This document shows, piece by piece, positions 2,221 to 45,540 of a DNA stretch of 64,000 nt; position 1 is the stretch's first letter; every line of letters starts with the position of its first letter. The notes under the pieces were generated by a model that was given only the letters and a program-made list of their open reading frames with translations, searched no databases and was not told the DNA's origin. The position numbers and the translations under genes are program-made. This DNA comes from Rhodamnia argentea (taxonomy: Eukaryota; Streptophyta; Magnoliopsida; Myrtales; Myrtaceae): assembly GCF_020921035.1 (NCBI RefSeq), contig NC_063160.1, positions 1,694,501 through 1,758,500 of the forward strand, written 5' to 3'.

Positions 2221-2828
2221 CCTATTTTATGCAAAAGTCGATGTGCAAGCAGTAGTAAAAAATGAAGAGAAAACAATGAAAGTCACTACAAAAATGAAAG
2301 ATAAGCCCCGATGCTAGAAGATATGAAAATCATAGGCAAAAGAACAACGATTAGAAAGAGGAGAGAGAAGCGGATGTTGATGTTCCGTCCCATTAGATGT
2401 GCAGAGTTGGGTAGGGAAATGGAAGTCGAGGATGAAACCACTACGCGCTTTCAAATCAAAACGTAAAGTGCACTCGAAAGGTAGATTCGTGGAACATAGT
2501 ACCACCATGTCATGGCGGCCCCAATTCCATGATGATCTTAACATTGTGTCGTCGCGCCACTGGATTTGATTTTGGGGCACATTGGATGAATATTTTTCTC
2601 GCTATAGCAGGAGTGCTGCTCGGTCGAAACTCGTGCGATGGTGGCGGAAATGTGCGCAAACCGTTGAATGTGGATGACGTCGTAATATGGGGACGAGGAG
2701 CGTTCATTCGTTTAACCTCTTGGTGTGGTAGCCTAAAAGCGAAGAGGGTCGTGTTGTTTTTTCACGAGATGACAAGTTCGAGTATTGGCGGGAGTGGATC
2801 TTCGACTAGTTTTAAGCCTTGGACACTA
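1437..2828. other. intergenic, no gene seen
   Basis: AT-rich DNA with a dinucleotide repeat near 2186-2217. The open frames around 2314-2840 overlap on both strands, lack homologous motifs and show no splice context, so I do not call them genes. Confidence 0.55.
2186..2217. repeat. (AT)n microsatellite
   Basis: About 16 uninterrupted AT dinucleotides, read directly from the sequence. Confidence 0.95.
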
Positions 2829-3254
2829 AGGGGTGCATGAAATCCATCCAGAAACAAAATTTCTATTCCAAACCTATTTCTGGAACAGAAACTCGTTTGG
2901 TAACTTAATTCTATTTTTCTATTTCTGAAACAAAAAATTTTTTCAGAAATTGATTTGAAGAAGAAATGAGAAACAATAATTTTTTACTTTTCCGAGAAAT
3001 AGAAATAGAAATCTCACTTTTTCTCAAACACCGGCCGCCGCCGACCACCACCCCCCCCTCCCACGGGGGCCACTGCCGTCAGTCACCCCAGCCACCCCCC
3101 ACCATCGGCCGGCTGATGCATTTTTTAGAAGTAGAAATTTTTTATCGTTATCAAACACATTTTTTTGCTCAAAAACTCATCTAGAAACAGAAATAGGAAA
3201 AACTATTTCTAGCCAGAAATTTATTTCTGAAACAGAATGGTTATCATTCACCCC
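2829..3254. mobile_element. PIF/Harbinger-type MITE, copy 1
   Basis: Seen: terminal inverted repeats AGGGGTGCATGA at the left and, read from the right end inward, GGGGTGAATGATAACC. CTA lies directly outside both ends (2826-2828 and 3255-3257). The arms are built from alternating TTTCTG/CAGAAA motifs around a short GC-rich core at about 3030-3115. A 3-bp target duplication with termini starting in G is typical of PIF/Harbinger (Tourist-like) elements. Two longer relatives lie at 21275-22137 and 38623-40140. Non-autonomous. Confidence 0.75.
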
Positions 3255-3512
3255 CTAGTTACCTCCGACCGAAAATGAAAAAAAAACCTTGGAATTTTGA
3301 ATGTCGAGTGAATTATGGGATTGCGGCTCCAAACTAATTATTTCATAAGACTCTCATAACAAGTTCCGAAAGGGAGAGTTACACTAGACACTGGACCCAA
3401 TAAAGATCCTTAATAAAGGCTGCAGCGTTTTATAATTGGCTATATGATAACCAAATAAGTCACTAGACTTAGTTGAGCGATATATAGTAAGCCTATGGGT
3501 TTGAATACATCT

Positions 3513-4098
3513 ATATAAAGTCCTAAACCTTTTGTATTTTTGTCAATTCAATTCTAAACCTTTTAAGTTTATTGATTCGATCGTAAACATTTTCACATTT
3601 TATCAATTCAATCCTATTGGCCCAAAATCATTGACGTGAACACCGATTGTCTTACATGGCACGTTGATATTTACATATTATTTTTTATTATTTAAAAAAA
3701 TTAAATTTTTTTATTTTTTTTTCCATTTTTTTCTTTCTGGCTTCAGAGGCCAACCAGGTCGCCGGCCCCTGAGCAAGGGCCACAAAGCCCTCGTGGCCGC
3801 GGGCGAGGGTTCCCGGCTCTCACCCTCATCGTGGCCAGATCTGGCCACGCCGAGGGCCGCAAGGGTGAGGACCGTGGCCCCTCCCTCGTGATCGCGAGGG
3901 CTTTGTGGCCCTCACCCAAGGTCCGCTAGGGCCGCCAGCCTCTAACCCGTAAAGAAAAACGATTAAAAAATTAAAAAAAAAACTCAAAAAATAAAATGGT
4001 TGAATTGGCAAAAGGTGAAAAGGTTTGAGACTGAATCGGCAAACTTATAAGGCTAATAACTAAATTGACAAAAGTGCGAAAGGTTTAGGACATTTTTT
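3513..4098. mobile_element. fold-back element, family D, with GC-rich core
   Basis: Left arm starts near TATATAAAGTCCTAAACC; the right arm read backwards starts CGTAAAAAATGTCCTAAACC. Both arms carry repeated phrases of the type TTTTGTCAATTCAATTCTAAACC. The centre (about 3740-3950) is strongly GC-rich and palindromic, with repeated GGCGAGGG and AGGGCCAC motifs. A related left arm is seen at about 22945-23260 and another is cut by the window end at about 63655. No coding capacity. I could not define a target duplication, so the superfamily is left open. Confidence 0.65.
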
Positions 4099-6225
4099 AC
4101 GGTTGTCCCTCTATATGAACTAGCTTGACCACGGGTTCCAGTATTCCATATTATCCGATAATTATTGTGCACACATATCAAATAAGCAACCAATGCTCAA
4201 CTAATCTCATAAAAAGTATTCCAATGTTCGATTCCTACTCAAGATAAGCTCCATGGGTCAATGTAAGAATAAAGATGAACATAAAGTAGTGGAATTTATG
4301 TATATCTTGGTGAAATTATATGCGAGTCTATCTATAGGCTTTACAAAATAGCTATCTATGGTGACATTATATTGTAATAGAAAGTACAATCAATCAGGAT
4401 ATGACATTTCGATGTGAGAGATACACATAATCGGGTAATATATTCGTAACGGTCAAGATATAGTCAATTCATTTCTAAAAGGTATCAGCTTCGGGCGGAA
4501 ATAATTTATCGTTGACCGAATCAAGGAGATGAGCTTAGTCCTGTGCAAACCTAATTAATGGGTCGAACTGGACCTCCAAAACTCCCCCGATGAATGACAA
4601 AAAGTTGTATTGTCATGTAATAGTGATCGTGCCTAGATCGGCCCGAAAAGAAGATTGCTTGTCCAAACATTGTCTGTTTCGCCTCTAGGGACTAGGCCTA
4701 ATGGGCCACCCAATCCATGACCAAATTCTATGTGGAAGTTCATGTATTTTATTAATTGCTAAACCAGGGGAAAAGACAAAGAACATTATAGTTTTAGAAT
4801 TTTTTATTTCTGGGTTTACCAGAGGGGGAAAAAAGAAGAATTCGACACTGATTATTCTCTTTGCGATTTGCCCCCTTAAAGTGATAAAACTTAATAAGCA
4901 ATCCTAAATTCATGAAAATGCAGTTATCTTAAATTTGAAATGATTAATCAATTGAAAACGTTTTCATTATCACAAATTTACGTCTAAACATTCTCATGGA
5001 CGATTGAAAATACGTTTCGTGTTTAAAGCAATCCTAGATTCATGTAAATGCAATTATCTTAGACAGCCGAAGCCGACATACTTTTAGTATTATCATAATC
5101 TCCAAAGCCCCAATACGTAGCCTTTGGTTTAGATTTGCCTCCTCAAAGTCTAATTCGAGGTCGGATTGCCTTTGATTGCAGCCTTCCCTTCCCTCCAAGA
5201 TTGCACCACTGGACAGTTACTTTGCGATTTGAACCCGACTTGTCGATTGACATGTTTCTGATGGCAATTTGGGTCGGCTTTAAAAATAAACCTTGGAGAA
5301 ATGCAAAAGCCCTAAGTCTAAGGGGGGTTTTGGGTAAATACAAATTGTGTTTCATAAAAAATTCATTGTAAAGCAACTTGGAGTTAAGATGCGCTTGGCC
5401 AAAAAAAAAAAAAAATGGCGAAAGGTTGGCTATAATTTTTCTTTTTAAAAAAAATCAAACCCTTCGACATTCGTTAGTTTCGACAAATGGCCCAAGCCAC
5501 CAGTGAGATATATCCGGCGCTAGCGGCCGTCGCCCAAGGTCACACGACCTTGGGTGACCTCGGCGAGGGTCACACATCCTCATGCACCCATCGCCCGGGT
5601 TGCGCAACCCCAAGCAATGAGGCCTAAGGTCGGGCGACCCCAAGTGACCATCACTTGGACGATCACACAACCTTAGGCAACGGTCGCTTGGGTCACACAA
5701 CCTCTCCGGCCAGATCTAGCCTTGTCGGCACTCATGGATAGCCATCGCTCGAGAAGATGAACAGTAGATCTAGGGTTTCAGTTTTTAAAAGGAGTAAAAT
5801 TAGATCTTCAATAAGGTTTTGAGGAAAAATAGGCAACCGACAAATTTTCAGTAATTGGGACCTTCAACATTCGAAAAATGCTAAAAGCTCAAGGTTGATG
5901 GGGACTTATCTTAGATTTCAACCTTCCCAATGCTAGTTTTTTGCCTAATGACCCTTGAAAACGGTTGCCAAACACTCCAAAATTTCTTGAAGGGCCTTTC
6001 AAAATGCTGAATCAAATGCACCATTCAACCAACACTTTTCAATTTAAATCAAATCAACGGTCTTATATAAAATTATTCGTGACACAAGTCGCAATTGATA
6101 GCACTAACGAACGTCAAATATCACATGAAAGTCATGATCAAATTTTAGTCAAATTTGAAAATATATAATTGCAATACCTTCTTTAACGTGCTATTCCATG
6201 CCTGAATTTTTTAATTTTTTTAGAT
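4099..6225. other. intergenic with a GC-rich repeat core
   Basis: Mostly AT-rich unique-looking sequence. From about 5400 to 5890 there is an A15 run, then a GC-rich block (5500-5760) with repeated GGTCGCACGACC-like units, then AT-rich sequence resembling a degraded fold-back arm. Open frames inside the GC block come from its composition. I see no gene. Confidence 0.5.
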
Positions 6226-6387: not shown

Positions 6388-7118
6388 GAGAAAATTTCAA
6401 AAAAAGAAATAGCTTTAAGTGCCATCATTTTGTCAAATAAAGACCTCAAGTAGACCTTATTTTAATTAAAGGTCCGAAGTGCGCTCTTTATTTCAAGAAA
6501 GGGCCCGATTAGGGGCATTTTTCACATTTTATGTTTTTTTTTTATTCTTTTTTTCCTTTTTTCTTTCCTTTTTTCCTTTTTGTCTCTTCCACCTCGACTC
6601 CCCAATGGCCGTGGGCCGGGTCGTCTCGTGGCCGCCGATGAGGGTGCGGCCGAATTCAGAAGATCTCGCTTGCAAATCCCCAAACCTATCTCACCAATCC
6701 CCTCCGGAAATTATGGCTCCAATGGCCCCTCCACTTCTTCATTGTCTTCTTCAATCCTCAAGCCCAATTCCGAGTATCCCACGGGTTACTCTTCAAGCCG
6801 CACAAGTTCTTGGCACCCACTTGACAAAACCTCGTCGAGAAAGCGGCTCAAATCATCTCAATCCGGCGAGGGCTTGCCGCCCGTTGCCTAGGCTACGCGA
6901 GGCAAGCCCTCGCCTATGGCTAGCCGACGACCACCGGTGAGGCGAGATGGAAGAGAAAAAAAGGGAAAAAAAATAGAAAATGTAAAAGTACAAAAATATC
7001 CCCGATTAAGCCCTTCTTTGAATTTTGACCCAAAAAAAAGTCTTTCTTTGAAATAAATAAGGCACTTCATACTCTTATTTGAAATAATCTACACTGCATC
7101 TCTTTTTTTAAATTTTTA
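6388..7118. mobile_element. Mutator-like non-autonomous element (family C) carrying a gene-like fragment
   Basis: Seen: left terminus GAGAAAATTTCAAAAAAAG; right terminus read inward TAAAAATTTAAAAAAAGAG. Both lead into the family phrase CAAATAAAGACCTCAAGTAG / CAAATAAGAGTATGAAGTG. The 9-mer TAAATTAAA flanks both ends exactly (6379-6387 and 7119-7127). Nine-bp duplications and long AT-rich terminal repeats are hallmarks of Mutator-like elements. Unlike other copies (404 and 387 bp), this one contains about 220 bp of non-repetitive sequence (about 6650-6865) between GC-rich core halves, which looks like captured genic DNA. Confidence 0.7.
6650..6868 (+). pseudogene. captured coding-like fragment of unknown gene
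   Basis: Inside the Mutator-like element at 6388-7118. An uninterrupted frame (6580-6891) runs through the block. Its centre encodes a Ser/Pro/Asn-rich stretch containing ISPIPSGNYGSNG and, further on, HPLDKTSSRKRLKSS, which ends in a basic nuclear-localisation-like cluster. The composition is unlike the low-complexity GC cores of sister elements. I do not recognise the parent gene. It has no start, promoter or splice context of its own. A chance open frame cannot be excluded. Confidence 0.4.
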
Positions 7119-7289: not shown

Positions 7290-7427
7290 ACTCATTCTCT
7301 CTCTCCCCCCGACTGATCAATCGTGACGCCGGACCAAGAAGTGGCAGGGACGAGCAACGTCTTGATTTGATAAACCTTTGACCACTTCATCGTTTCTGAA
7401 TCTTCTTCCTTGTCTCCGAATCCCAGG
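7290..7427 (+). other. probable 5' UTR exon of the 71-aa membrane protein gene
   Basis: A CT-rich stretch (CTCTCTCTCCCCCC) followed by unique sequence and a consensus donor at 7427/7428. The following 1.4 kb is T-rich and contains no convincing coding exon, as expected of a plant leader intron. The transcription start is approximate. Confidence 0.5.
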
Positions 7428-8830
7428 GTATGTTTCCTCTCTTTTAACCTTCCAATTTTTTCCAGAGAAATTTCCTCGTGCTCGAATGGTTTCTCAGTTC
7501 GGTCTTGTTGCTGGAGATTCTTTGCGGGTGACGTTGGATCTGGCTCGGAGAGATCGAAATTGGATCTGGGTATTGCTCCATTTCTTGGTTGGATGTTGAT
7601 GGCGTAGAGTTTCATGGATGTTGCCAGCTATTAGGGTTTATGTATTTGGTCTTTGATTTCTTGGGCAGCTTCTTGTTTTGGTAATGGCATCGTGAGGTTG
7701 AGACTTATGCAAATTTGCTTTAAAATGCTATCGAATGGGTAATTAGATTTCTGTACAGAAAAGGGTGACGGTTCTGGGCATCCCTGGTTTTCCCTTCTTG
7801 TTTTTTCCCCTGAAAATTTGGTATTCTCAGCTTGGATGCTTTCTGTGACTTGTAGATGGCTTGTTTGTCTATAAAAGGAAGTTCTTTACCACTTTGTGAA
7901 ATTGTCTTATGCATTTGAGTGATGAACATGAGAATTAGATTGTGTCTTCAATAGACAAAAAAGAACTGGTTGATTGCTACATAATGCTACTTGCGAGTGT
8001 TCTGATGGAAGATGAAGTTGTCTTCACCATTGTGCTTTTCATTTGGGGCCCAGAAAGCCTAATTCTTGATCAACTGCAACGCTTTCATTTTTTAAGTGGG
8101 AAATTCACAGCAGCTCTTTCTTGACCCAAAAGTAAATAAACAGAATGATACCTGTGCACTTGACTGGTAGCCTTCTTGCATAATGATTTGAGTAAATAAG
8201 TGTGGTGTTCTCACCCTAATGTGCCCTGACTCAAGGACCCAGGATCTAACGAGTCTTCTGTATTTTTGGTGAATTGTAATTAGTCTTTGGACTTTACAGT
8301 CTTACGACTCTATCAAGTCTATTCCAGAATCGAGGTAGATGACTTTGTTGGCTGTTTTAGTTGGCTTCTGGTATTCGTCTTTTGCGCGATGAACTTTCAC
8401 TTGCACGTCTAATATCTGAGCCAATATTAGTCGAGCTTTCAACATATTCGATCCTCTGGAGGGACTTTCACGTTACACTTGTGAGAAAAATCCATTGTTT
8501 CCTGTGCACTTAGCCTCGTCACTGTATCCAACCATGAACAGGGATACTAATTGCAATCCTTTACTTAAATTATATCTGATTAAGACCTGCCAATACTTCT
8601 ATAAGCTCTACGATACAGTTGACCAGTTGTATGTCTTGGGTACAAACTGTTTCTTTTTCATCTGGAATTTTACCTGAGCCATAACAGTTATACTGAAATA
8701 GGGCTTTAATCTATATTCAATCCGCTAACTTGCTGCCATCATTGTGCTGGCGGATGTTGCTGGTCTGATTTACTAGAAAATGAAAGAGCGGAATTTTACA
8801 AACCAACGGATGTTTTTGACAGATTTTAAG

Positions 8831-14635: not shown

Positions 14636-15039
14636 GGAAAAAATTCCAAATAAGAACCCGAAGGCCATATTTTCTCAAATAAGGACATGAAGTGGACTTT
14701 ATTTCAACTAAGGGTCTAAAGTGCTCTCATTGTTTTAAAGAAAAGCATAACCAAGGGTATTTTCGTCATTTATATTTTCTAAATTTTTTCCTTCCTTTTC
14801 GTTGATGGCCGGTCTCGGATGATGATCGACCACCAGCAAGAGTTGGGCAAGGCCGTTGAGGGCCGACCTCACCTACCGCAACAAAGGAAAAAAATGAGAA
14901 AATGAAAAGAAAAAAGATAAAGAAATTAAAAGAATTGACAGAAATGGCCTCGATCAAGCCCTTATTTGAAATAAAGTATACTTTAGGCCCTTATTTGAGA
15001 AAATTAGAGCACTTCAGCCCTTGATTTGGAAATTTTCCA
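14636..15039. mobile_element. Mutator-like MITE, family C
   Basis: 404 bp. Termini GGAAAAAATTCCAAATAAG and, read inward from the right, GGAAAATTTCCAAATCAAG. Flanked by AAACTGTTT (14627-14635) and AAACTATTT (15040-15048), an 8/9 target duplication. A GC-rich core with GGCCGGTC and GAGGGCCGACC lies at about 14804-14878. No coding capacity. Confidence 0.8.
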
Positions 15040-15235: not shown

Positions 15236-15622
15236 GGAAAATTTTCAAATAAGAGCATGAAGTGCCATCTTTTCTTAAATAAAGGTATGAAGTAGACTTT
15301 ATTTCAACTAAAGGCGTGAAGTACCCTCATTATTTCAAAGAAGGGCCTAAATAAGGGTATTTTCGTCATTTATATTTTCTAAAAATTATCCCTGCCTTTT
15401 CACTAATGGCCGGCCATCGGTGAGGGCTAGGCGAGGTTGTCGATGGCCGACCTCACCTACCGCAACAAAGAAAAAAGGAAATGAGAAAATGAAAAGAAAA
15501 AAGGAAAAAATTAATAAAATGACTAAAATGCCCTTGATCATGCCCTTATTTGAAACAAGGTACATTTAAGGCCATTATTTGAGAAAATTAGGACACTTCA
15601 GTCCCCTATTTGGAATTTTTTC
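15236..15622. mobile_element. Mutator-like MITE, family C (duplicate copy)
   Basis: The counterpart of 14636-15039 in the second tandem unit, with the same arms, core and right flank AAACTATTT (15623-15631). The left flank has drifted to AAATTGTTC. It arose by segmental duplication, not by separate insertion, because the flanking host DNA is duplicated with it. Confidence 0.8.
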
Positions 15623-21274: not shown

Positions 21275-22137
21275 GGGTGCGCATGGTAATACTTCTAAAA
21301 GTGAATTTCTGCTCCAAAAGTGCTTCTGGAGCATAAATTCATTTGATAATTTAACTTCTGAAACGGAAATTCGTTTGATAAAAATTTTTACTTCGAAATG
21401 AATTTCTACTTCTCAAGTGAATTTTCACTTCTAAAATTGTTTTTCCCAATTTGAGAAATTAAAAAAGTCGTTTCTCAACTCAAGAAGTACTTCTTGCCTC
21501 ACCATTTTTCATTACGCCGTCACCCTCTTTTCATTACGCCTCTCTCGCCTAATCACTCCGCCGCCATCGTCGCCCACCTCCGCCAACCACCAACCTCCGC
21601 CGACTATCGCCGCCTCCCGTCGCCCGTCGCCACCGGCGGCCGCCGACCACGCCCAACCCTCGTCGACCCTCACTCGCCGCTAGTTGCCAACCCCTTCCGT
21701 CCACCGCACCCCCGGCCGACATCGCTCGCCGCCCACTGTCGCCCTCGTCAACCATTGCCCACAATGGGACGCCATCGACCTCCGCCCTCGGTCGACCGTC
21801 GGCCCCTACCGCCGACCGCCACCAACAGTTGTCGGCCGCCATCGCCATTGAGTCTTCATCTTTGGCCGCTCGAGTGAAAAATAAATAATAATTTTAATAA
21901 TAAAAATTATTTTTTTAAAGAAATTTAAAAAAATTAAGAATGAAGTAGAAATTTTTTGGCCACCGATAATAATTCTTCGCATAAGATTTTGTGTTAATAA
22001 TGTTCCATAAATAGAAATTTTCAACCGTTACCAAACTAATTTCATCGATAAAAAATCAACTTCTATAGTAGAAGTAAAAAAAATCAACTTATAATCAGAA
22101 GTTGATTTCTGAAATAGAAGTGTTGCCATGCGTGCCC
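21275..22137. mobile_element. PIF/Harbinger-type MITE, copy 2
   Basis: 863 bp. Termini GGGTGCGCATGGTAATACTT and, inward from the right, GGGCACGCATGGCAACACTT, with TTA directly outside both ends (21272-21274, 22138-22140). The arms are AT-rich with repeated AGAAGT/ACTTCT motifs; the core (about 21535-21870) is C/G-rich with many CCGCC repeats and gives a spurious proline-rich frame. It shares its arm sequence, in inverted orientation, with 39460-40140. Non-autonomous. Confidence 0.85.
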
Positions 22138-32800: not shown

Positions 32801-34855
32801 ATTAGTGCCTCCCTCCTTGTTTAAACGTCTGTCTACCAGATAACTAGAAACTATCATAGCCTAGAAAAAGTATGTAGCTTAAGCAGTAACTTCTGACATT
32901 TTGCCAAGCCCAAGTGGACACATATGAACTTTTCTTTGACATGTAAAGAGGAGTGCCTCCTTAAATTATCATCTTTTCACTTTAGTTATTTATTTTAATC
33001 TGTCGATTATAGGAAGTCAATGCTGAAGCAGTGAAAAGAGATCTCTAGTATTGCGCCAATGAACACAGATAGAAAATGCTCTTTTACACTTCGAAAGTCA
33101 AATTGAAGATGATGTAGCTTCAGGATGACTTTTCTGTTGAAGATACTAGAGCTCTCATTATCTTTGTTTACTGCAAAGTTCAAAATTGTTATATATTTTT
33201 AAACGGGGTTACGTACAAATTTAGTCCTTTGAGTTTCAGCTTTTGTGCGATTTGATCTTCAAAATTCCATATAATACAATCAAATTCCCCAACTTTATAT
33301 ATTTGTCCAATTAGATACTCTAAGTTTTATTTTGTGACAATCAAGTCCTCTAACTTTCTTAATTTGTACAATCAAATACTTCCATCAACCACTCTAACTA
33401 AACTGTCAAATTAATCAATGATGTGATATTGCTTATGTGAAAGAAAATGCCACGTGATAATTAATTTGTCCCCAAATGATCCAAAAACAAACGGTAAATA
33501 CAAGAAAAAAAGTCCTTTGACAGTATCAGTTACAGTGGATAAACAATGCAATTGATCGCACACATTAAGAAAGTAAGAGGAGTTGATTGCACAAAATAAA
33601 ACTTGCGACCAAATTGCACAAATCCAAAAAGTTAGAGGACTTAATTACACAAAATAAAAGTTAGATGATCAAAATGCACGTATTTTGAAACTTAGAGGAA
33701 TATATACTTAACCGTGAGAAATGAAAGCTTCCATGTATCTTGAGTTGTGCATCTTGTCTAGTTAAGGTATCTATTACAAACAATGACGACGATGACAACA
33801 AACCAAGCCTTGTCCCACTTATCGGCTATGCGAATCATTTCACCCCATTGTGCTTAATTGTGAATAAAGATTTTTTATTTACGCACGATTTACATCTTCC
33901 CTTGACATCTGTTCCACATGTTTTTAGATACTTCCCTGCTCTTTTTCATCTATGCGTAGATCATTGAACATGTCTCCTCGCTAGCCAGCCAAAGTTCCAC
34001 TTCAACGCAATTAAATCATCCTAGATGAGCCCCTCTCATCCGATACTCGAATGAGGTAGCACCTGCTTGTCCTCTAATAAGTTCCTCTTCCATCACATTT
34101 TTTTTTCAAGCACCCACATATCCAAAGAAGCATTCTCATCTTCGCTATGCTCATTTTTCGCACATGTTGATGTTTAGTTGCCATAAAGCATCGCTCCATT
34201 TATTTCACCGGGAAACACTCAAAACATAAAAAATACAAGAATTTCAAATAGAAAATGAAATTTATACATTCTGTTATGAAAATTGAGTATAAGAGGAATA
34301 CTGTCTTGCATGGGCAAAATCCTAATTATCCTATCCATGAGTCGATATGTTCTTTCATAAATTTTGTATAATCATCTAAAAACTTACATATCTAAGGAAA
34401 CAAATTTTTAAAAACATCTTAGTACCCGGTCAAGGAGGTGTTGAAAACAACTTCTCCAACTTGTGTTCCCGAAGCCCCAAACGACTTGGCCCTCCAAATA
34501 GAACCATCTGCCAGGACCAGCCTCGCATCAGCTAGTTTCCAGGGCCTTTCTTGAACAGCTGAGGCTCAACAAAAACGTCACATTATATTACGAGAACGCC
34601 CCCAACATGTCAACGCGTTTGAAAGGGACAAGCATATAAACAAACACGTTGAGGACAATCCGAACCACCTCGGGAACGAACAATCAAAAAAGAAGAACAC
34701 CCACAAAGATCACCCTTAATGAAAATACCAGTGAAGGCATCGTGAGAAGAGGAGAGAGGAACTGAGCATCTGACGACGAAAGGCCTCGACTTTGAAGGGT
34801 TCTTCGTAGAAGGGTCCGTAACGAAGCATCTCACAGCATAATTTACAGTCGCCAT
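29841..34855 (-). CDS. CARA: carbamoyl-phosphate synthetase small (glutaminase) subunit, plastid, 426 aa
   Basis: Releases ammonia from glutamine for the large subunit, giving carbamoyl phosphate for arginine and pyrimidines. Exons (minus): 34855-34729, 34558-34426, 31779-31691, 31619-31559, 31436-31369, 31250-31122, 31043-30934, 30838-30491, 30327-30162, 29890-29841; total 1281 nt. Residues 1-42 are a Ser/Arg-rich plastid transit-like segment. The CarA N-terminal domain follows ([25 protein letters not shown]), then a class-I glutaminase domain from about 240 with nucleophile Cys314 in [12 protein letters not shown] and His398/Glu400 in [10 protein letters not shown]. Length matches plant CarA (about 430). 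Intron 4 uses a GC donor (CAG|GCAAGT), without which [13 protein letters not shown] would not join in frame. Intron 2 (2.65 kb) hosts a fold-back element and a LINE remnant. Start chosen as the first in-frame ATG close to the promoter. Confidence 0.95.
31471..31559. repeat. tandem duplication inside CARA intron 4
   Basis: Two units, CGCAGTCTTATTTTC...AAATGGAGGAGGAACT, at about 31470-31510 and 31511-31556. They abut the GC-type donor of the intron (31558/31557 on the minus strand), so the donor-proximal sequence occurs twice. Confidence 0.8.
33206..33718. mobile_element. fold-back element in CARA intron 2
   Basis: Left arm ACGGGGTTACGTACAAATTT...GTTTCAGC...GATTTGATC; the right arm read backwards CTCACGGTTAAGTATATATT...GTTTCAAAATACGTGCATTTTGATC. 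Arms carry repeated phrases (TAGAGGACTTAATT / AATCAAGTCCTCTAAC). About 510 bp, non-coding. Confidence 0.65.
33750..34215 (-). mobile_element. LINE reverse-transcriptase 3' remnant (intronic)
   Basis: On the minus strand, a decayed frame near 34115-34190 reads [16 protein letters not shown] and LLWICGC, matching in style the C-terminal segment of plant LINE reverse transcriptases (HVxKMxVAEMRMLRWMCG). The downstream end (33740-33830 read backwards) reads GATAAGTGGGACAAGGCTTG and a short GTC-rich tail, typical of such 3' ends. Frames are broken. Lies within CARA intron 2 in the same orientation as the gene. Confidence 0.55.
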
Positions 34856-35110
34856 TGCTCTCTCTCTATCTCTGCGTCTCAAGTTCGTTCCTTTGATGCG
34901 TCTCTCGAGTTTCTCTCACTCCACTGCTGCATTGAGGAAGGAGAGCCGGAAGCTGCGAACACAACTAGGACAGAGAAACCCTAACAAGATTAATAATTTT
35001 ATTAAATACCAAAACTATTTTTCGGCCAAAGAAAAATCTTTTTACAAATAAAAAATTATTAATTTTAAATATCGTGATTAAGACTTGCTTTAATGAATAC
35101 ATAAACAAAT
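34856..35110. other. promoter and 5' UTR region of CARA
   Basis: CT/GA-rich sequence next to the start codon, then AT-rich flank up to the Mutator-like terminus at 35111. The gene is transcribed leftwards. No TATA box is clearly placed. Confidence 0.45.
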
Positions 35111-35863
35111 GGGAAAAAAAAATCTCAAATAACAGCATAAAGTAGTGTATTCATTTTTTTAAATAAGAGTCTAAAGTGGACCTTATTTCGGATAAAGGCG
35201 TGAAGTGTTCAAATTGTTCTAAAAAAGGACCTGACCGAAGGACATTTTCATGTTTTACTTTTTGAAATTTTTTTCTTTTTCTATTTGTCTATTTCCCTTT
35301 TCTTTTTTTCTTTTTTTCCTTTTCCTCTTTCCTCCCCTCCCTAGGCTATCGTGGGCCTCCAGGCGAAGTCGAGCCAACTTCAAGTGAGGTAGTGCACTGG
35401 TGAGGACAGCTGATGGGCCCCATTGCCCATTGCCATCGCCATGGCGTCGTCCACCTAGACATCAAGCCCAAAAACATACTCTTCGACTCCCGAGGGCAGC
35501 TGAGGCTCACGGACTTCGGCTCTGCGGAAGTGATCAGCGGAGAGCAGACTGCGGCACTGAAGGGGTGGTAGGCACTTTGTACTACGTGGCGCCGAAGGAG
35601 GTAGCAAGGAGGGAGTATGTATGATGACCCGAAAATCCTCACATGCATATTGGTGAATTAGTATTTAATGAATTCGGATTATGAAATAAGTATTAAGAAA
35701 TTTTTATCCGAACTCCCATGTATTTTTCAAGAATTTTTATGGACCCGGTACTATTTTTAGGGACATGATATGTTGAATTTGGTCTCATCGGGTCAAGTAT
35801 GTACAAAATTGGGACAAGCGGGGATAGAATTTGGACAAGGCCGCATGTGGATATGCAGGGGAG

Positions 35864-35939
35864 CACGTGCCACGCTCGCAGCTAACCGGTGGACACGTGG
35901 AATGCGCACGTGACACGTGGAATGCACACATGACACGTG
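35864..35939 (+). promoter_or_regulatory. cluster of five G-boxes (CACGTG) in the LTR promoter
   Basis: CACGTG cores at 35864, 35894, 35907, 35914 and 35934, within 76 bp and about 105-180 bp upstream of the LTR TATA box at 36042. Several have the ACACGTGG or ACACGTGT context of bZIP (abscisic-acid-type) elements. They arise in part from small internal repeats (GACACGTGGAATGC). Confidence 0.85.
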
Positions 35940-36041
35940 TTGTGTTTTGGTGCGTCCGCAAGCGGCTCAAGCTGCCGAATCGTCATAAGCCGACTCTACT
36001 ACAACCGCCGCAACCGGCTGACTACAAGCCGACCGAGCTAT

Positions 36042-36049
36042 TATAAATA
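36042..36049 (+). promoter_or_regulatory. LTR TATA box
   Basis: TATAAATA in the context GAGCTATTATAAATAGAAAT, downstream of the G-box cluster; placed as expected for the U3/R boundary of an LTR. Confidence 0.65.
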
Positions 36050-37637
36050 GAAATCGACATCGGTTTATTTAGCGGCTCTTGTCGGAAACCTCGGTCGTTA
36101 CCTTGTTGGAATATCGATCGCCTAGTTGTCACCGCCGCTCACCGTTGTCGCCGTTCTCCGCCCATGACGGTGCCATACGCAACTAACGCCATAGCCGCCC
36201 GCGGCCGCCTCTAGCCATTCGTGCCCTAGTCGTGACCACCTTTGGCCGTTCGGTATCCCGTTCCGTCTGTTTGTTCATCCGATTGTTCGTCTATTTGATT
36301 TCTCGCTTCGTTGAGGCAATTAGATCTCTATCCTTATTACTATACTTTCTATGATTACGAATGCGAATGTTTGATTCTGATGATTGATGAGTTGTGGTAG
36401 AGGATTTGGATATCAATTTGAGATATACTGTATATAAGGATCGTGTTTGCCTTGGTAGGGTTCTGATATTTGTCATTGATATGAGATATGATTGGTTGTC
36501 CGGACGATCCTCGATTACGTAATGTTATAATTGGTTTAGTCATTTGGAATAGAAATCTACCGCTTGGTATAATCCACTCATTCCGATAGTTGAAACCCTT
36601 TTTTCGGATCAAAAGTATGTCGGCTACTTCGATTCCAGTACAACAACGTCTCTATGGTGAGCCTCCGTGGATTGGTAGGTCTATATGAGAGCATGTTCAT
36701 GTCCGACCTAACAGCCATTGAGAACCCGATATAAGATCATTCGATCGAGGTTTTATGTGGAATAGGGACCTCCAATTGGTTTAGTTGCCTTTGAGTTCGT
36801 GGTCATTTCTTGCCGTGGGATATCAGGATGGTTAGGTCCTATTCCACCTCACCAATTCAATGCGCTTGGGATCGCGAATGATGAAGATGATAATGAGGTA
36901 TTCATTCCTCATACATGTTCGATATTTAGGTTCGAAGAGGAATGAAGTATGAGCAGATGGCAATGGAGCTATTAGTACTCGAAGTAGTTTAGTTTCCTTG
37001 TAATTACTCCTATGTAGTACTCCTCTCATGTAAATGTTGTAAATAATTGAAGTGGCTGCATGAATATGTAAGAAAGAGTAGTGAATGTAGTTGAATAAAC
37101 GAGATATGAATAAAAGGTTGTTGTTTGGCATGTGTGTTATCCGGTTAGCGAAACTATTAAAGGCCATACCCTTTTGTATAAGCATGCCTGCCATTAGATG
37201 TTTTGTTGTTTGACATGCACTTGTGCCCGTATGGCCATCCTATTTGATTTTTCTATTTATAAGCTTCCACATAAGCCATCGTACTACGATTAAGGAAATA
37301 TTAAATAAAGAAGAGAGCGGGGTTTTGGAAAGCCTTTCCATCGGGGTTTCGGCGGTATGGGACGCTACAATATAGAGATAAGGTGGACGCGTGGAGCATG
37401 GGGTGGTGTTGTACGTTATGCTGGCGGGGTTCCCAACGTTCACTATCGCGAGTCTTCTTGCTGGTGTCGCTGGTGGTGAAGGATCCGCTCATGAAGATGC
37501 TATGTAAGGCTGCTTCCCGAAGGCTCTTTGCTGATCAAGTCCTAAGCAAGTCTTGTGTTTTTCTCAGCCATTTAGTCAACTTCTTCTTCTTCTCTAGGGG
37601 GTTTAACTCTTTAAGTGAAGTGAAAACCAATCTTGAA

Positions 37638-38463
37638 GGCCTAATACCCAAAAAAACTCCAACTTTAGCATTTGAGACAATTATATCCAAAACTTTTTTT
37701 TGTCTCATAAAAAACCTCCAACTTTTATTTTTGTCCCAATTTCACGGGTCTAATACCCAAAAAAACCCTCAACTTTAGCATCTGTCCCAATTATATTCAA
37801 ATTTTTTTTTTGTTCATAAAAAATCTTCAACTTTTATTTTATCCCAATTCTACCACCATTAGTCTTCCGTCTACAATCACCGTTAGTTAATCCTACGTGG
37901 CGCAAGTTTCCTCGTCGAACTTACCAATGAATTTTCGAAACTTAGAAATAGTAGGTTTCGGGGACAACGGGGTTTTAGATCGTTAGTCCAAATATCTACA
38001 TATCTAGCCTTTTTTGGGCTCCCGAGTATCGAAGAGAATACGAAACGTGTCGTCTTAAGTGACTCTATATCTCCCAGCAACATGTAAGGGAAGCAAACTA
38101 CAGAAGAGAAGTATGGAAGTTTTTTCATGTTAGCTTTACTAAGGTGTGATTCATTAACAACGTAAAAATGCCATATATGATTAACTAATGGTAATTGTAG
38201 ATGGAAGGCTAACAATGATAGAATTGGGACAAAAGTAACAATTGAAGGGTTTTTATGAGACAAAAAAATAATTTTGGATATAATTAGGACATATGCTAAA
38301 GTTGAGGGTTTTTTTGGAACTAGGCCGGTAGAACTGGGACAAAAGTAAAAGTTTGGGGTAGAATTGAGACAAATGTAAAAGTTGAAGGTTTTTTATGATA
38401 CAAAAATTTATTGGGTAGAATTGTCATAAATACTAAAGTTGAATGGTTTTTTGGATATTGGAC
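37638..38463. mobile_element. fold-back MITE, family B, copy 2 (Mutator-like)
   Basis: 826 bp. Termini GGCCTAATACCC and, inward from the right, GTCCAATATCC. The 11-mer CCAATCTTGAA flanks both ends exactly (37627-37637, 38464-38474), within the long-duplication range of Mutator-like elements. Both arms are internally doubled: the CTAATACCCAAAAAA...GTCCCAATT unit starts at 37641 and again at 37750. The interior matches 588-1436 in inverse orientation. Confidence 0.85.
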
Positions 38464-38622
38464 CCAATCTTGAAAGCTCCATTTTTGCAGAGATTCACCT
38501 TCAATTAGTGACCTTTTAGAACATCTAAACATGCAAAACCATTTCATATTTATCAAACTTGTTTCAAATTTATGACCCACTACGATTCATCTAATCCTAG
38601 CTTCGATCATAAAATCGTTTAA

Positions 38623-40140
38623 GGGCACACATGACAATATTTCTGCTTTAGAAATCAACTTATGGCTATTGAAGTTTGTTTATAAAACAAACAAAAAAGT
38701 TGTATTTTCCAATCCCATATAGGATTGATAGAAGAGTGCAAATTCTTTTATTAGTTTGAATGCTACTATAATATTTCAAAATAAAGAAATGGGCAAGTAG
38801 GCTAAACCTTACTATATTCGCATGCGGGTGTGCGATTTGACGTGATTATTAGATGCACTTAGCATTTTGCGTGCCACGGACGGAAATAAACCTTAATCAA
38901 CAATATTTTTTTATTTCGAAATTAATTATTTTATAATTATATTTCATTATTTTTTTTATTGTGATTGTTTGGACACGTATAGTTGTGTCTAAATGGAGGT
39001 CATCAGACACTAACGATTGTGTCCAAATGGCTATCATCACACATGAACGGTCATATCCGAATTGCAATTTTTAGACATGAATAAGTGCAATTTTTCGGAT
39101 AAGAATAGGTGCGTTCATATATGGGCGGTTCAGACACCAAGAGGTGTGTTCTATTAGCATCATATAATGGACAGTTATGTTCATTTTTGGGAGTTACTTT
39201 TTATTCTTTCGTTTTCCTTTAAAAGAGAGACATTCATCTTTCCATTGTTTCGTAGAGAATTTCAGGAGATTTACTGGAATTTTTATCTAGTATTCTCATC
39301 TTGACTTTGTTGTATCCTGAAGAAAATTTGCAAGAAGCCAATAGCAACTTCGTGGTGCAAATTGATCACAAAAGAGAGTGATTATATGTCTCAAAGTCCG
39401 ACTACATTGTTACTCCATTTCTTCCAATATTTTTCCAAAATTGGCAGTAAGTTAATTTTTATGCTTTTACTCATAAGCAGAAGTTGATTTTTCTACTTAT
39501 ACTCTAGAAGTTGATTTCTGATTAGAGAAATTCGTTTGGTAATGATTGAAAATTTTTACTACTGGGACATTATTAACACAAAATCTTATGCAAAAATTAT
39601 TATCCGTGATCGAAAAATTTCTACTTCATATGTATTTTTTTTAAATTTCTTTAAAAGTAAAAAAAATTATTATTTATTTTTTAATCTTTCGGTCGGAGAT
39701 GGCGGCAAATGGTGGCGGTTGGTGGTGGTTGCGATGGTGGTCGGCAATTGTCGGTGGTGGAGGTTGGTAGTGATTGGTTGTTGGCGGCGGTGGTCGCTGC
39801 GACGGTGCCGCGGTGGTCGGCGATGGGCGGCGGGTGGCGAAGGTCGGTGGTAGGTGGCGACGGCAGAAGTGTAGTTGGGAGAGAGATGCTGAAAGTGAAA
39901 AGAGGTCGGAGAGATATTGATGTTGAGAGATTTTTACTTATGAAGAAAAAGTAATTTTTTTTAACTTCTGGAATTAGCTCAAAAATAACTTTAGAAATAG
40001 AAATTTACTTCAAAAGTAGAAATATAATGTTGCGTAACAAAAAAGATTCTGCTTTAGATGTAGCATTATCAAACGGATTTATACTTCAAAAGCACTTATA
40101 GAGCAAAAATTTATTTCCAAAAATGTTACCATGCGCATTC
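38623..40140. mobile_element. PIF/Harbinger-type MITE, copy 3, itself interrupted
   Basis: 1518 bp. Termini GGGCACACATGACAATATTT and, inward from the right, GAATGCGCATGGTAACATTT; TAA directly outside both ends (38620-38622, 40141-40143). The right part (39460-40140) aligns with the inverted sequence of 21275-22137, including ACATTATTAACACAAAATCTT and a G/T-rich core at 39700-39880. It is longer than its 863-bp sister because of an insert at about 38665-39455. Confidence 0.8.
38665..39455. mobile_element. insertion within PIF-type MITE copy 3, possibly a solo LTR
   Basis: About 790 bp absent from the sister element. Near its left side TGTATTTTCCAATCCCATAT resembles the start of a copia-type LTR, and the middle (38990-39170) has repeated GTGTCCAAATGG and CGGTTCAGACACC-like motifs. 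The exact ends and target duplication were not resolved. Confidence 0.4.
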
Positions 40141-40550
40141 TAACCGTCTCACGTTTGAAACGATGCACGATGCAAAGCATCCATGATTGAGTAGCTACAA
40201 AGGAGCATAATCGACAGATCTCATCTAATTCAACACTTCTACCGTATATAAGTGCAGAGTAATCTTGCGAGGGCAAGTCGCCCTCGCATGGCCTCGCCGG
40301 TTTAAGTGAGGGTGACCCTTGCCCAACGCCAGCCCAGCCCTCACTTGAGGTTGGCAATGGCCTGGGGAGGGAAGGGAAGAGGAAAGATAAATAAAAAAAA
40401 ATAAGAAAGAAAAGAGAAAAAAAGAAAAGAAAAATCAAAATAATGAAGGATGAAATACCCTTAGATTAAGTTCTTCTTTGAAATAATTTGAACACTTCAG
40501 ATTCTTATTTGAAACAAAGTTCACTTCGGGCCCTTATTTGAAATTTTCCC

Positions 40551-41300
40551 TATACAAACATATATGTGTACGTCCTTACCAAAAAAAACATATATGTGTA
40601 CGTCTCGTCTAAAATGGCATGAAATCGCAAAAAATTAAACTGATTTTTCGAAAATGAAGGATAAATAATTTAATGGATCAGTATCACCAAACATATCGAA
40701 TTGATAAATCCATTTCACTTTTACCTCAAATAATTTTTTTTTTCATTAAAAATTCTACACTCATATACATGCCTCACATTTATTTCTAAATTTATTTCTC
40801 AGCCACATAAAATTATGGATGCTCACCGATTTTCAAAACTTGGGAAGCTCTATGGGCTAAATTAAGATATTCTAGCGGATTTCTCAATCCAAAACTTCGT
40901 TGATTTGGGATTTTTTGTGACGTAAAAATTAGTTTGAGTCAAGTACTACACAGTGTACCAATTCAAGATTTTTGGTGACACAAAAGTTTGTTTGAGGAAA
41001 AAAGGCGGCACAAGAGTGTACCGGTCACCGAATTTCTCGTGACATGAAAATTAGTTTGGATTAAATGTAAGAGGAGCTCAATTTTTTTTTTTGGTGTTAG
41101 CTCGGGTTTAAATATGGAAAACCTATTATTGTGAAAATTGAAAAAAGATGCTGACAAATGTACAAATAAATTCAAACAACAAAGAAAAACATAAAAAGCC
41201 ACGTGGCATAATATGAATTTTTTTGTTTTGGTACCAATTTTTCATTTTCCGTAAAAGAAAAGAAATTCAATTTGAGTTTCCAAAACCCTAACCAAAGAAA
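40551..41300. other. intergenic, upstream of uL15m gene
   Basis: AT-rich. A 17-bp direct repeat ACATATATGTGTACGTC lies at 40558 and 40588. No gene seen. Confidence 0.5.
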
Positions 41301-41333: not shown

Positions 41334-44300
41334 ATGATCCGCAGAAGACTCTCTTCCCTCCTCTCCTCTTCACTCTCCAGACCACCCTCCCTCCCCTCAA
41401 GGCCTCCATCGCGACCTCCTCCTCCTCCGCCGCCGCTCCCGCTCCCACCCTCGCCGCCGCTCCGGTTCCGTCGGCCTCAGCATTTTCACCTCCTCCCGGG
41501 CTCTGCAATCGCCAGTCGCGGGCAATGCGGCGGCGTCAGGGCTTACAGCTTGCTGAGCTTGAACGACCTCAGGGACCGGCAGCCGAAGAAGCAGAAGAAG
41601 CGGAAAGGGCGCGGGATCGGTTCCGGTTTGGGGAAGACCGCGGGGAGGGGCCACAAGGGGCAGAAGGCGAGGGGGACCATGAAGTTCGGCTTCGAGGGCG
41701 GGCAGACGCCGCTCCGCCGCCGCGTGCCGAAGCGGGGGTTCAAGAACCCTTTTAGCCTCACTTTCCAGGTGCGCCTTCGTGGGTTGATCTCATCGCCTTC
41801 TGCTTTGTTCTTGTGGAGCAATTGGTGAGTTGCTTGTGGATTGTGGGTGATGACGCCGACATTTGGAGTGTTTTAAGACTGGGGATCGTTGTGACGATTA
41901 TGGAGTGTGGTGCTTCCGGTTTTATTTGGATGTACACTTGAATGTCGCTCGAAATGACTGGAGAGAAGTTTATTCCGACAATATCAATACGAATTTCTAG
42001 CAGTTTTCTGGGACAGCTCGCTGGTAGTAGTAGTAGTGCTCTCAGAATCTAGTGAGCATAAGGTGTTATCTTGACCATTGGATTTTCACTGTTGGTCTGG
42101 GACAGCAAAGCTGGGTAGATGTTGCTCATATAATGTCTGGTGGCAAAGAAATGTTGATTTAGTTGATCCTTCCATTGATTATTTCCCCTAGATTACGGTT
42201 TACAGATGTTTCTAAATCAAATATCATAGACATCTCTTTTACTTTCTACTGTTGTGATTGTGCTAAATAATGAGACTTATTGAGAATACTTTATCCGCCC
42301 TGTTTTTGACTGATTCGCTTCAGACAGCTATATCTATTTTCAACCTTTTTTAAGGAGCACTTTATATTTTTTTTCCTAACTCTCTGTCCTCTTTGCTTGG
42401 TGGTTTACTCCCACCTGCTGTGCAGCCGGTTGGATTGGGGAAACTTGCAAAGCTCATAAATGCTGGGAAAATCGATTCCTCTGAGTTAATTACGATGAAA
42501 ACTCTCAAGGTATTGCCATTGCATATACTTGAATTTCAGCCCTGCATATTATGGGCATTGCTTCAAATTGGTTACAATTGTTCTTGTGATAGGATGTAGG
42601 GGCTATAGGGAAGCAGATTAAGGATGGAGTTAGATTGATGGGACGAGGTGCTGAGCAAATACAGTGGCCAATTCACCTGGAGGTAACTGTGTTTCTAAAC
42701 CTCTTCCTTTCTTACTGACCCTGCGCCATGTGCACAAGGAAAATGTCCTCATTTACTTTAAGTTCTTTTTTGGTTGGATGAGATGAAATGTACAAATGGG
42801 GTGCAAACTCTTCCAGAAGTGAACTTAAGGTGTAGAACCTTGGGAATTGAGTTTTACTAAGGGAAAATGATGACTTTCAGATTTAGTTAATTGCATTTTT
42901 ACTGTACCAAAAGTTCATAAGGTATAATGAATCAATCCAGAGACAAAGTAGGTCTTCATTGTCCTTTGAAAAAAAGAAAAATAAAACAAGGTCCTGCTGT
43001 TTGTCTTTCTCCACAAAATCCAAAAAGCATGAAGATGTTTGGGTGGGGTGCATCTTTTCTAATTCAAATGTTTAATATCATTACAATTTCATATAGAAAA
43101 AGCAATAGATGGTGGTTGTCTAAATAAGAAAAAGTGAAAGACTGCAGCTTTCCTGCCTATGTACAATGCAATCGTAATTGGTCAATCACTTCACCCTCTG
43201 ATTTTCCAATTATCCTTTGTAAATTGTGTTGGGTTGATGCAACATAGGTATAATACATTCATTTGGGAGATCATTAAGAGAGAGCCCAACTCCAAACTAA
43301 TTAATATATCTAGTTGGGTCGCTTTGTTCGCTTAAAAGCTTAAGCCAATGAGTTATGACCCAACTAGGATACATTAACTACACCACATCTCGGATGTGGC
43401 ACTTCTTATCCTCACACATGCGCCTTAACAAATCTTCTCCTCTCGTGTGAGCCCCTTGTGTTAGTCCCACTCCCCCTTAATCCAGGTATTCCCTCAATTG
43501 CCTTGGCCCAACCTAGCTTAGTGGGATGTCGGGGAACCATCCGCCACCTTGATTATGGAGTCCTGTTCTAGAGATATACGCCAAACATCGATACACATTT
43601 GGAATGGGCTACCAATAAACCATTGGCACTGGTATCACTTATTGCATCGATGTAGTAGAGGTCTAATCCTTTATAGGGGAGATCACCAAGCTGGAGCTTA
43701 ATTTCGAGTCCGTCAACATATCTAGTTGTACCCACTTTCATTCAAAAACTTAAGCAATGAGATATAGGTTAACAAGGATCACAATACAACACATTCCCCA
43801 TGTGAGATGTTTTGCTTGACACTCACGTGTGGACCTTAACAAACAGATCCTCTGGACAATTGACAGGAAGAATTTAGCCTGTTTACCTTTCCTAACAGCG
43901 AGGGCAACTGCCGGGGCCTCTTTAGACTTTCTTAACTTCTCCGAGGGAAGTTCCTTGGTCTTTAAGTAATTCCTGTGTGATAGAAGGCCTTACTACTCAT
44001 GATACCTGATTCAGGATAGGTAAAAGACGCCTTCTCAGGGGCTTGAAAAATTGTTTTTGGAAATTCGCTAAGTAAACTCGTCGTGATTTTTTGGGTATTT
44101 AAATTCCTTTCCATAGGTGACAAATGTAAGTCCTTTCTTCATGTGACATTGATTTACCTTCCTCTCGAGGTTCTTGATTTTATTGTTGTACTGATGCCAG
44201 TCACATTTCTTGGAGGAACTTGTTCATTATTGATGTTTACTTCGTTTTTTTCCACTTGTATATTTGGGATATTTATATGGGCAAACTGCCTTTCTTGTTG

Positions 44301-45132: not shown

Positions 45133-45540
45133 TAGGGAAAAATCTAAATAATGGCATGAAGTGTTCTTATTATTTCAAAAAGGGACATGATTAAGGGTAT
45201 ATTTGTCATTTTAAATATTGTTATTTTTTAAAAAATTTTCTGTCTTTCTTCCTTTGTTTTTTTACCCTATCTTTTCGCCGGTGGCTGGTCTAAGGCAATG
45301 GCCAGCCATTGGTGAGGGTCGGGCGAGGCCACCGTCGACGGTCGTGGGGGATGGGCTCGTTGGTCGCAAATAAAAAGAAAAAGAAATGAGAAAAAAGGAA
45401 AAAAAAATTGAATGACGAAAATATTTTTGGTCATATTCTTTTTTTAAACAGAAAAAGATCTTCATATTTTTATTTGAAAAAAAAATCTTATTTCATGTTT
45501 TTTTTTTAAGAAAATGAGGACATTTCAAATCGTTATTTAT
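45133..45540. mobile_element. Mutator-like MITE, family C
   Basis: Left terminus GGGAAAAATCTAAATAATGG followed by CATGAAGTGTTCTTATTATT; GC-rich core 45275-45365 (GAGGGTCGGGCGAGGCC); right arm read inward GAAAATGATATAAATAACG then AAATGTCCTCATTTTC. About 408 bp. A target duplication is not convincing at this diverged copy. Confidence 0.65.

Follow-up and report, generated by a model that had tools for sequence, protein, structure and literature searches.

The segment from 35111 to 40550 of a 64,000-nucleotide stretch of Rhodamnia argentea DNA (contig NC_063160.1, positions 1,694,501 to 1,758,500; C11:1694501-1758500; hereafter the window) is, with little doubt on our part, one old and degraded copy of a multicopy Pack-MULE, a Mutator-like element (MULE) that carries a fragment of a PPCK-like kinase gene and has received four later insertions. 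This reading draws on the structure of the segment and on its relatives in the 346.7-Mb assembly (74 contigs) that was searched. A MULE is marked by long terminal inverted repeats (TIRs) and a target-site duplication of 9-11 bp; a Pack-MULE, in addition, by a host-gene fragment between its arms, by a donor gene elsewhere that is free of such arms, and by the lack of transposase coding of its own.

The element starts with GGG at 35111 and ends with CCC at 40548-40550. Its left arm (35111-35344, plus strand) contains subrepeats of ~29 bp and has a pyrimidine-rich inner end, and the right arm (40371-40550, minus strand) mirrors it: of the inverted repeats listed for 34600-41100, the longest is formed by these two arms, with 91 ungapped nucleotides that are 71% complementary. 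With ~180-230 bp, and with comparable arm pairs in other copies, the arms are long TIRs of the MULE kind, which are described as typically 100-500 bp in length (PMC3310237). By their matches they belong to a repeat family, designated here as family C, for which the left arm gave at least 41 matches in the genome and the right arm (query 40142-40556) at least 56, each count including the element's own place. Further facing family-C arms are found in the window at 6390-7116, 14640-15038, 15236-15620 and 45146-45483. Inside the arms lie GC-rich cores, the left one (35345-35406, plus strand, 58% GC) leading from the arm to the captured sequence, and the right one at 40260-40370 (minus strand, 63% GC).

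The 9-mers flanking the element, TAAACAAAT at 35102-35110 and TATACAAAC at 40551-40559, are identical at 7/9 positions. The termini, this match count and the mirrored arms had all been reported in an initial annotation made from the sequence of the window, and they were recovered at the same positions. The length of the duplication is defined at the level of the family: 12 of 27 family-C arm pairs, taken at their exact ends, have at least 8 of 9 positions in common, versus 3 of 702 mismatched pairs. At the other lengths from 6 to 12, at most 5 of the 27 pairs reach the length minus 1 (4 at length 8, none at 10, 11 or 12). Twelve of the 27 left ends start with GGGAAAA. The window copy is itself among the 27 pairs and was scored as a miss, as the automatic placement of its end was five bases off in an A-run. 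The two arms, with their outer ends at 35111 and 40550, belong to a single Mutator-like (MULE-type) element.

The sequence enclosed by the cores corresponds to a kinase gene: 49 amino acids match Pfam Pkinase (E 8.2e-15), in agreement with the PPCK-like fragment of the initial annotation. The intact parental gene, for which a search had been proposed there, was found on C1 (reverse strand, locus L040) and is termed P1. Its exon 1 occupies P1 1144-1948 and its exon 2 runs from 2231 to a stop codon ending at 2307; the spliced product has 293 amino acids, with Pkinase over residues 9-272 (E 5.5e-65). Among solved structures, CaMKII is nearest to P1, followed by CDPKs. PPCK is described as a CDPK-related kinase that consists of a single kinase domain without a C-terminal regulatory domain (PMC12115312); P1 fits this description, and the name PPCK stays a likeness. 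A paralogue, P2 (288 amino acids), lies ~8.6 kb away in the opposite orientation. The 3.2-kb P1 locus is free of family-C arms; P2 has one ~1 kb upstream of its start codon, away from the captured region.

Four pieces of P1, all on the plus strand, are present in the window element. The first (35407-35616; P1 1501-1718) covers exon 1 from the kinase catalytic loop onward and is frameshifted, and the second (37375-37637; P1 1723-2044, with P1 1791-1865 missing) contains the end of exon 1 and the start of the intron. The third (38465-38619; P1 ~2034-2190) is the middle of the intron, and the fourth (40144-40259; P1 ~2205-2315) comprises the intron end, exon 2, the stop codon and a few bases more. 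The pieces are collinear with P1 1501-2315, through to just past the stop codon, and keep the intron, and the capture therefore took place at the DNA level. Identity to P1 is 596/711 aligned bases over all pieces, 302/361 in exon 1, 208/242 (85-88%) in the two main pieces of intron, whose overlap of ~11 bases lies at the duplication of a later insertion, and 86/108 in the last piece, which holds the end of the intron and exon 2. The exon is preserved no better than its intron, exon 1 carries a frameshift, and there is accordingly no sign of selection on the window copy. Its captured part has 47% GC versus 39% for the window. The fragmentary, frameshifted state is also what a processed (retrotransposed) copy later flanked by a transposon could display; however, that origin is refuted by the kept intron, at 85-88% identity to P1 in its two main pieces, and no poly-A tract is visible at the right junction.

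Searches with the captured region, using both the window piece and the donor stretch, located 14 separate places, of which 11 were examined. In eight of these 11, one of them the window copy, kinase sequence lies next to a family-C arm, separated from it by no more than ~120 bp of core. Six of the eight have two arms, namely the window copy, C7:28430287-28432783, C1:16116298-16117454, C6:15627 kb (L042), C2:32883 kb (L043) and C2:32859 kb (L044); the other two lie at C2:26190 kb (L045) and C2:7586 kb (L047). The remaining three places are kinase genes without an adjacent arm, namely P1, P2 and a gene at C6:20044 kb with an open frame of 341 codons. A search for shorter copies with the same ends plus kinase sequence, suggested in the initial annotation, was thus answered by the C1 and C7 copies and five more. 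The C1 copy measures 1157 bp, has both arms and is flanked by a perfect 9-bp duplication, TTCATTTTT; it is an uninterrupted and complete sibling of the window element. Among the two-arm copies, the duplication matches at 9/9 positions in this sibling and at 7/9 in both the window and C7 copies. L043 and L044, whose interiors are 97% identical, have a common 8-base sequence, TATATCTC, on both sides, with exact-end counts of 0/9 and 5/9.

In all eight arm-bearing copies the captured stretch begins at P1 1499-1505. In four of them (the window, C7, C1:16116 and L047), the GC core can be aligned by eye over ~40 bases ahead of the kinase junction; in L042-L045 the arm is joined directly to the kinase, without the GC core. 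Three copies have inverted kinase pieces beside both arms (L042 1289-2123, L043 511-1850 and L044 510-1849), and the pieces of the two sides have diverged by 13-27%. Family-C arms are so numerous, and the duplication of the window copy is so imperfect, that two separate elements or solo arms might have come by chance to flank a local PPCK-like duplicate, a pseudogene. Such a coincidence would, however, have to account for an identical arm-core-kinase junction at the same donor position at unlinked places and for the 1157-bp sibling with both arms and a perfect duplication; in addition, neither window arm is accompanied by a second arm at E 1e-6, and we regard this explanation as very improbable. 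That the segment is a single gene-capturing element, as first proposed, is instead upheld by the shared junctions, the common P1 start and the 9-bp duplication of the family.

Whether the family descends from one capture or two was considered with a tree built on a short alignment, in which the captured copies form two groups beside P1, one of the window, L042, L043, L044 and L045 and the other of C7, C1:16116 and L047, with support of 79 and 64. Such groups would result if this PPCK-like region had been captured twice, independently, and C7 and C1:16116 also differ from the window in internal content and right breakpoint; since the joining of the groups has a support of only 35, the tree alone is compatible with this history. 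Against it, the donor breakpoint is equal within ~7 bases in 8/8 copies, and the window has the core-kinase junction of the C7 group although its kinase sequence falls with the other group. A junction shared across the tree groups is the pattern expected from one capture followed by loss of the core. A second capture is accordingly judged unlikely; the preference for a single one rests on the breakpoint that the copies have in common and on the shared core junction, and not on the tree.

Three insertions interrupt the captured sequence directly. A solo long terminal repeat (LTR) of 1748 bp (35622-37369, plus strand), bounded by TG and CA, lies in captured exon 1 between ATGTA at 35617-35621 and ATATA at 37370-37374, which are identical at 4/5 positions. 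Several related copies share both of its ends, starting at query base 13 and ending at 1755-1763 (window 35622 to ~37369). An 827-bp MULE-type miniature inverted-repeat transposable element (MITE; 37638-38464) with long inverted repeats is flanked by CAATCTTGAA at 37628-37637 and 38465-38474, a duplication of 10 bp, or of 11 counting one more C, whose second copy opens the third captured piece. The third insertion, at 38623-40140, has TAA on both sides (38620-38622 and 40141-40143), and TTA precedes the start of two related copies (L063 and L064). This 3-bp TAA/TTA duplication is that of PIF-type MITEs, and the name of the PIF superfamily is used as a likeness. The window also holds, at 603-1432, a second nearly complete copy of the MULE-type MITE, 80% identical to that at 37638-38464, and, at 21278-22090, a reverse-oriented relative of the PIF-type element.

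The PIF-type element is itself split by a solo LTR of ~771 bp (38670-39440, plus strand, each end placed to within a few bases), which shows no clear target duplication of its own. Of the listed matches to the PIF-type element, most cover query 52 to ~825 (window 38669-39442), a repeat of ~770 bp, and four pairs of its relatives are spaced ~5.3-5.4 kb apart; L063 and L064 run through its site uninterrupted. The initial annotation had located the first three insertions, with duplications of about 5, 11 and 3 bp, and missed this fourth; on the present comparison the nested insertions number four, not three. Its residual element of 1.33 kb holds, as the 5440 bases minus the three first-level insertions leave 1329. 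Of the relative history proposed there, the capture does precede the insertions: P1 runs without interruption through the three first-level sites, the LTR and the PIF-type element are both absent from the corresponding sites of C7 and C1:16116, and the MITE site is single and uninterrupted in P1 and L045. L045 has a relative of the window MITE ~15 bases further on, which is read as an independent insertion. The succession of LTR, MITE and PIF-type element is unsupported, and the inner solo LTR, which came after the PIF-type element, is the sole insertion that can be placed in order. None of the five frames of at least 70 amino acids that overlap the residual 1.33 kb has a Pfam match at E 0.05, and transposase coding was accordingly not found in it.

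By far the most likely course of events starts with a non-autonomous Mutator-like element that took in ~0.8 kb of genomic DNA from the PPCK-like gene on C1, comprising a part of exon 1 and the whole intron together with exon 2 and its stop codon, possibly by gap repair or template switching at a short shared sequence, as the literature suggests. The resulting Pack-MULE was then copied by transposition to several chromosomes, with transposase presumably supplied in trans. The window copy later gained the solo LTR, the MULE-type MITE and the PIF-type element within the captured sequence, the last being struck in turn by a second LTR retrotransposon that is now a solo LTR. The captured reading frame is broken.

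Several observations weigh against this reconstruction. The window duplication, only 7/9, is by itself modest evidence, because 7 or more of 9 positions also match in 12 of the 702 mismatched flank pairs. The 27 arm pairs are loci chosen by similarity to the arms or kinase of the window element; L043 and L044, both included, are duplicates of one place, and L011, one of the 12 good pairs, is an A-run and hence weak. L042 has no convincing duplication (2/9), L047 retains just a fragment of its right arm, and L045 lacks a right arm within the sequence read. The right breakpoint varies, from P1 2315 in the window to ~2251 in C7. At sites that differ between P1 and P2, the window agrees with P1 at 13, with P2 at 8 and with neither at 1, and the node of P1 with both captured groups has a support of 53, in addition to the 35 for the joining of the two groups. 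Three of the 14 places, at C6:31852 kb, C10:18919 kb and C8:485 kb (68-75% identity), were left out. Finally, among 10 loci with matches to the MULE transposase profile PF10551, two of them extended, no transposase gene flanked by two family-C arms came to light.

These 10 loci were fetched from 150 PF10551 matches reported for the host, and none of the 10 has a family-C arm within its flanks. At C1:30378 kb (L080), a 797-codon frame (2380-4770) has a MULE transposase match, with a right family-C arm (7379-7591) 2.6 kb past the frame and no recognizable left arm in the preceding 2.4 kb; this locus is a possible autonomous relative of family C. The arm pair at L081 was rejected as an autonomous partner, being a small element apart from its transposase match.

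Family C has taken up other sequences as well. In C7 and C1:16116, P1 1756 is followed by a second sequence that is also present at C7 10771 and 10788 kb; it is common to the two siblings at L056 1060-1365 and C7:28430847-28432433. Because a frame ~400 bases further on at C7 10788 kb has a Carb_anhydrase match (E 1.4e-5) that scores 25.3 bits, below the cut-off of 27, this second fragment may be the start of an alpha-carbonic-anhydrase-like gene. The interior fragment of L043 and L044 is 85-88% identical to C1:9222683-9223398, the sole other place found, which has no Pfam match and resembles vicilin only weakly (E 0.24 or worse). For about 1.2 kb of the C7 interior no identity was found. L003 22-1683, a family-C element that lacks kinase sequence, has a perfect 9-bp duplication and carries a Glyco_hydro_17 fragment (Pfam, E 5.1e-16). 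Pfam searches of 10 of the 25 listed element frames returned this GH17 match, the C7 kinase and eight frames without a match. L025, which has a polygalacturonase-like look, matched no solved structure.

The window element lies between two reading frames that are both directed away from it. The frame at 41334-41828 (plus strand) matches the plant mitochondrial ribosomal protein uL15m (E 9.8e-40), and that at 34610-34882 (minus strand) has no Pfam match. The siblings with inverted kinase pieces (C6:15627, C2:32859 and C2:32883 kb) could, if transcribed, be putative hairpin sources of small RNAs against P1 or P2, with longest exact antisense stretches to either gene of 29 bases (L043), 26 bases (L044) and 19 bases (L042). 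We consider this role improbable; if it were true, the scattered copies of family C would regulate the genes from which their kinase sequence came. No such inverted arrangement is present in the window copy. What the family offers is a resolved history of gene capture in one genome, with a donor, a breakpoint, an uninterrupted sibling and siblings with second captures, and such cases help in timing capture against amplification and in avoiding false kinase gene calls.

Like Pack-MULEs in general, the window family combines long inverted arms, a 9-bp duplication at the family level and many copies with an intron-retaining gene fragment from an unlinked donor. The window copy differs in being heavily degraded, with four insertions and arms of ~180-230 bp that contain ~29 bp subrepeats. 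A close parallel is PM-ZIBP, described as a Pack-MULE of tomato that has 14 copies and a single acquired gene fragment (PMC3310237): in both families one fragment has been amplified to many copies while the donor gene is still present, and the 9-10 bp duplications reported for PM-ZIBP are of like size. PM-ZIBP copies are, in that account, distinguished mainly by tandem arms, whereas those of the window family vary by absence of the GC core, second captures and inverted kinase pieces beside both arms. The last arrangement, seen in L042, L043 and L044, resembles the integration of acquired sequence into extended TIRs that the same source describes (PMC3310237), although here the two sides have diverged by 13-27%. 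Because multicopy Pack-MULEs, extended-TIR acquisitions and nested insertions in MULEs have already been described (PMC3310237, PMC8277862, PMC3903597), the window family is, as far as these accounts extend, not a new kind of element. The process of gene capture is itself already known, and the window element is a well-resolved example of it.

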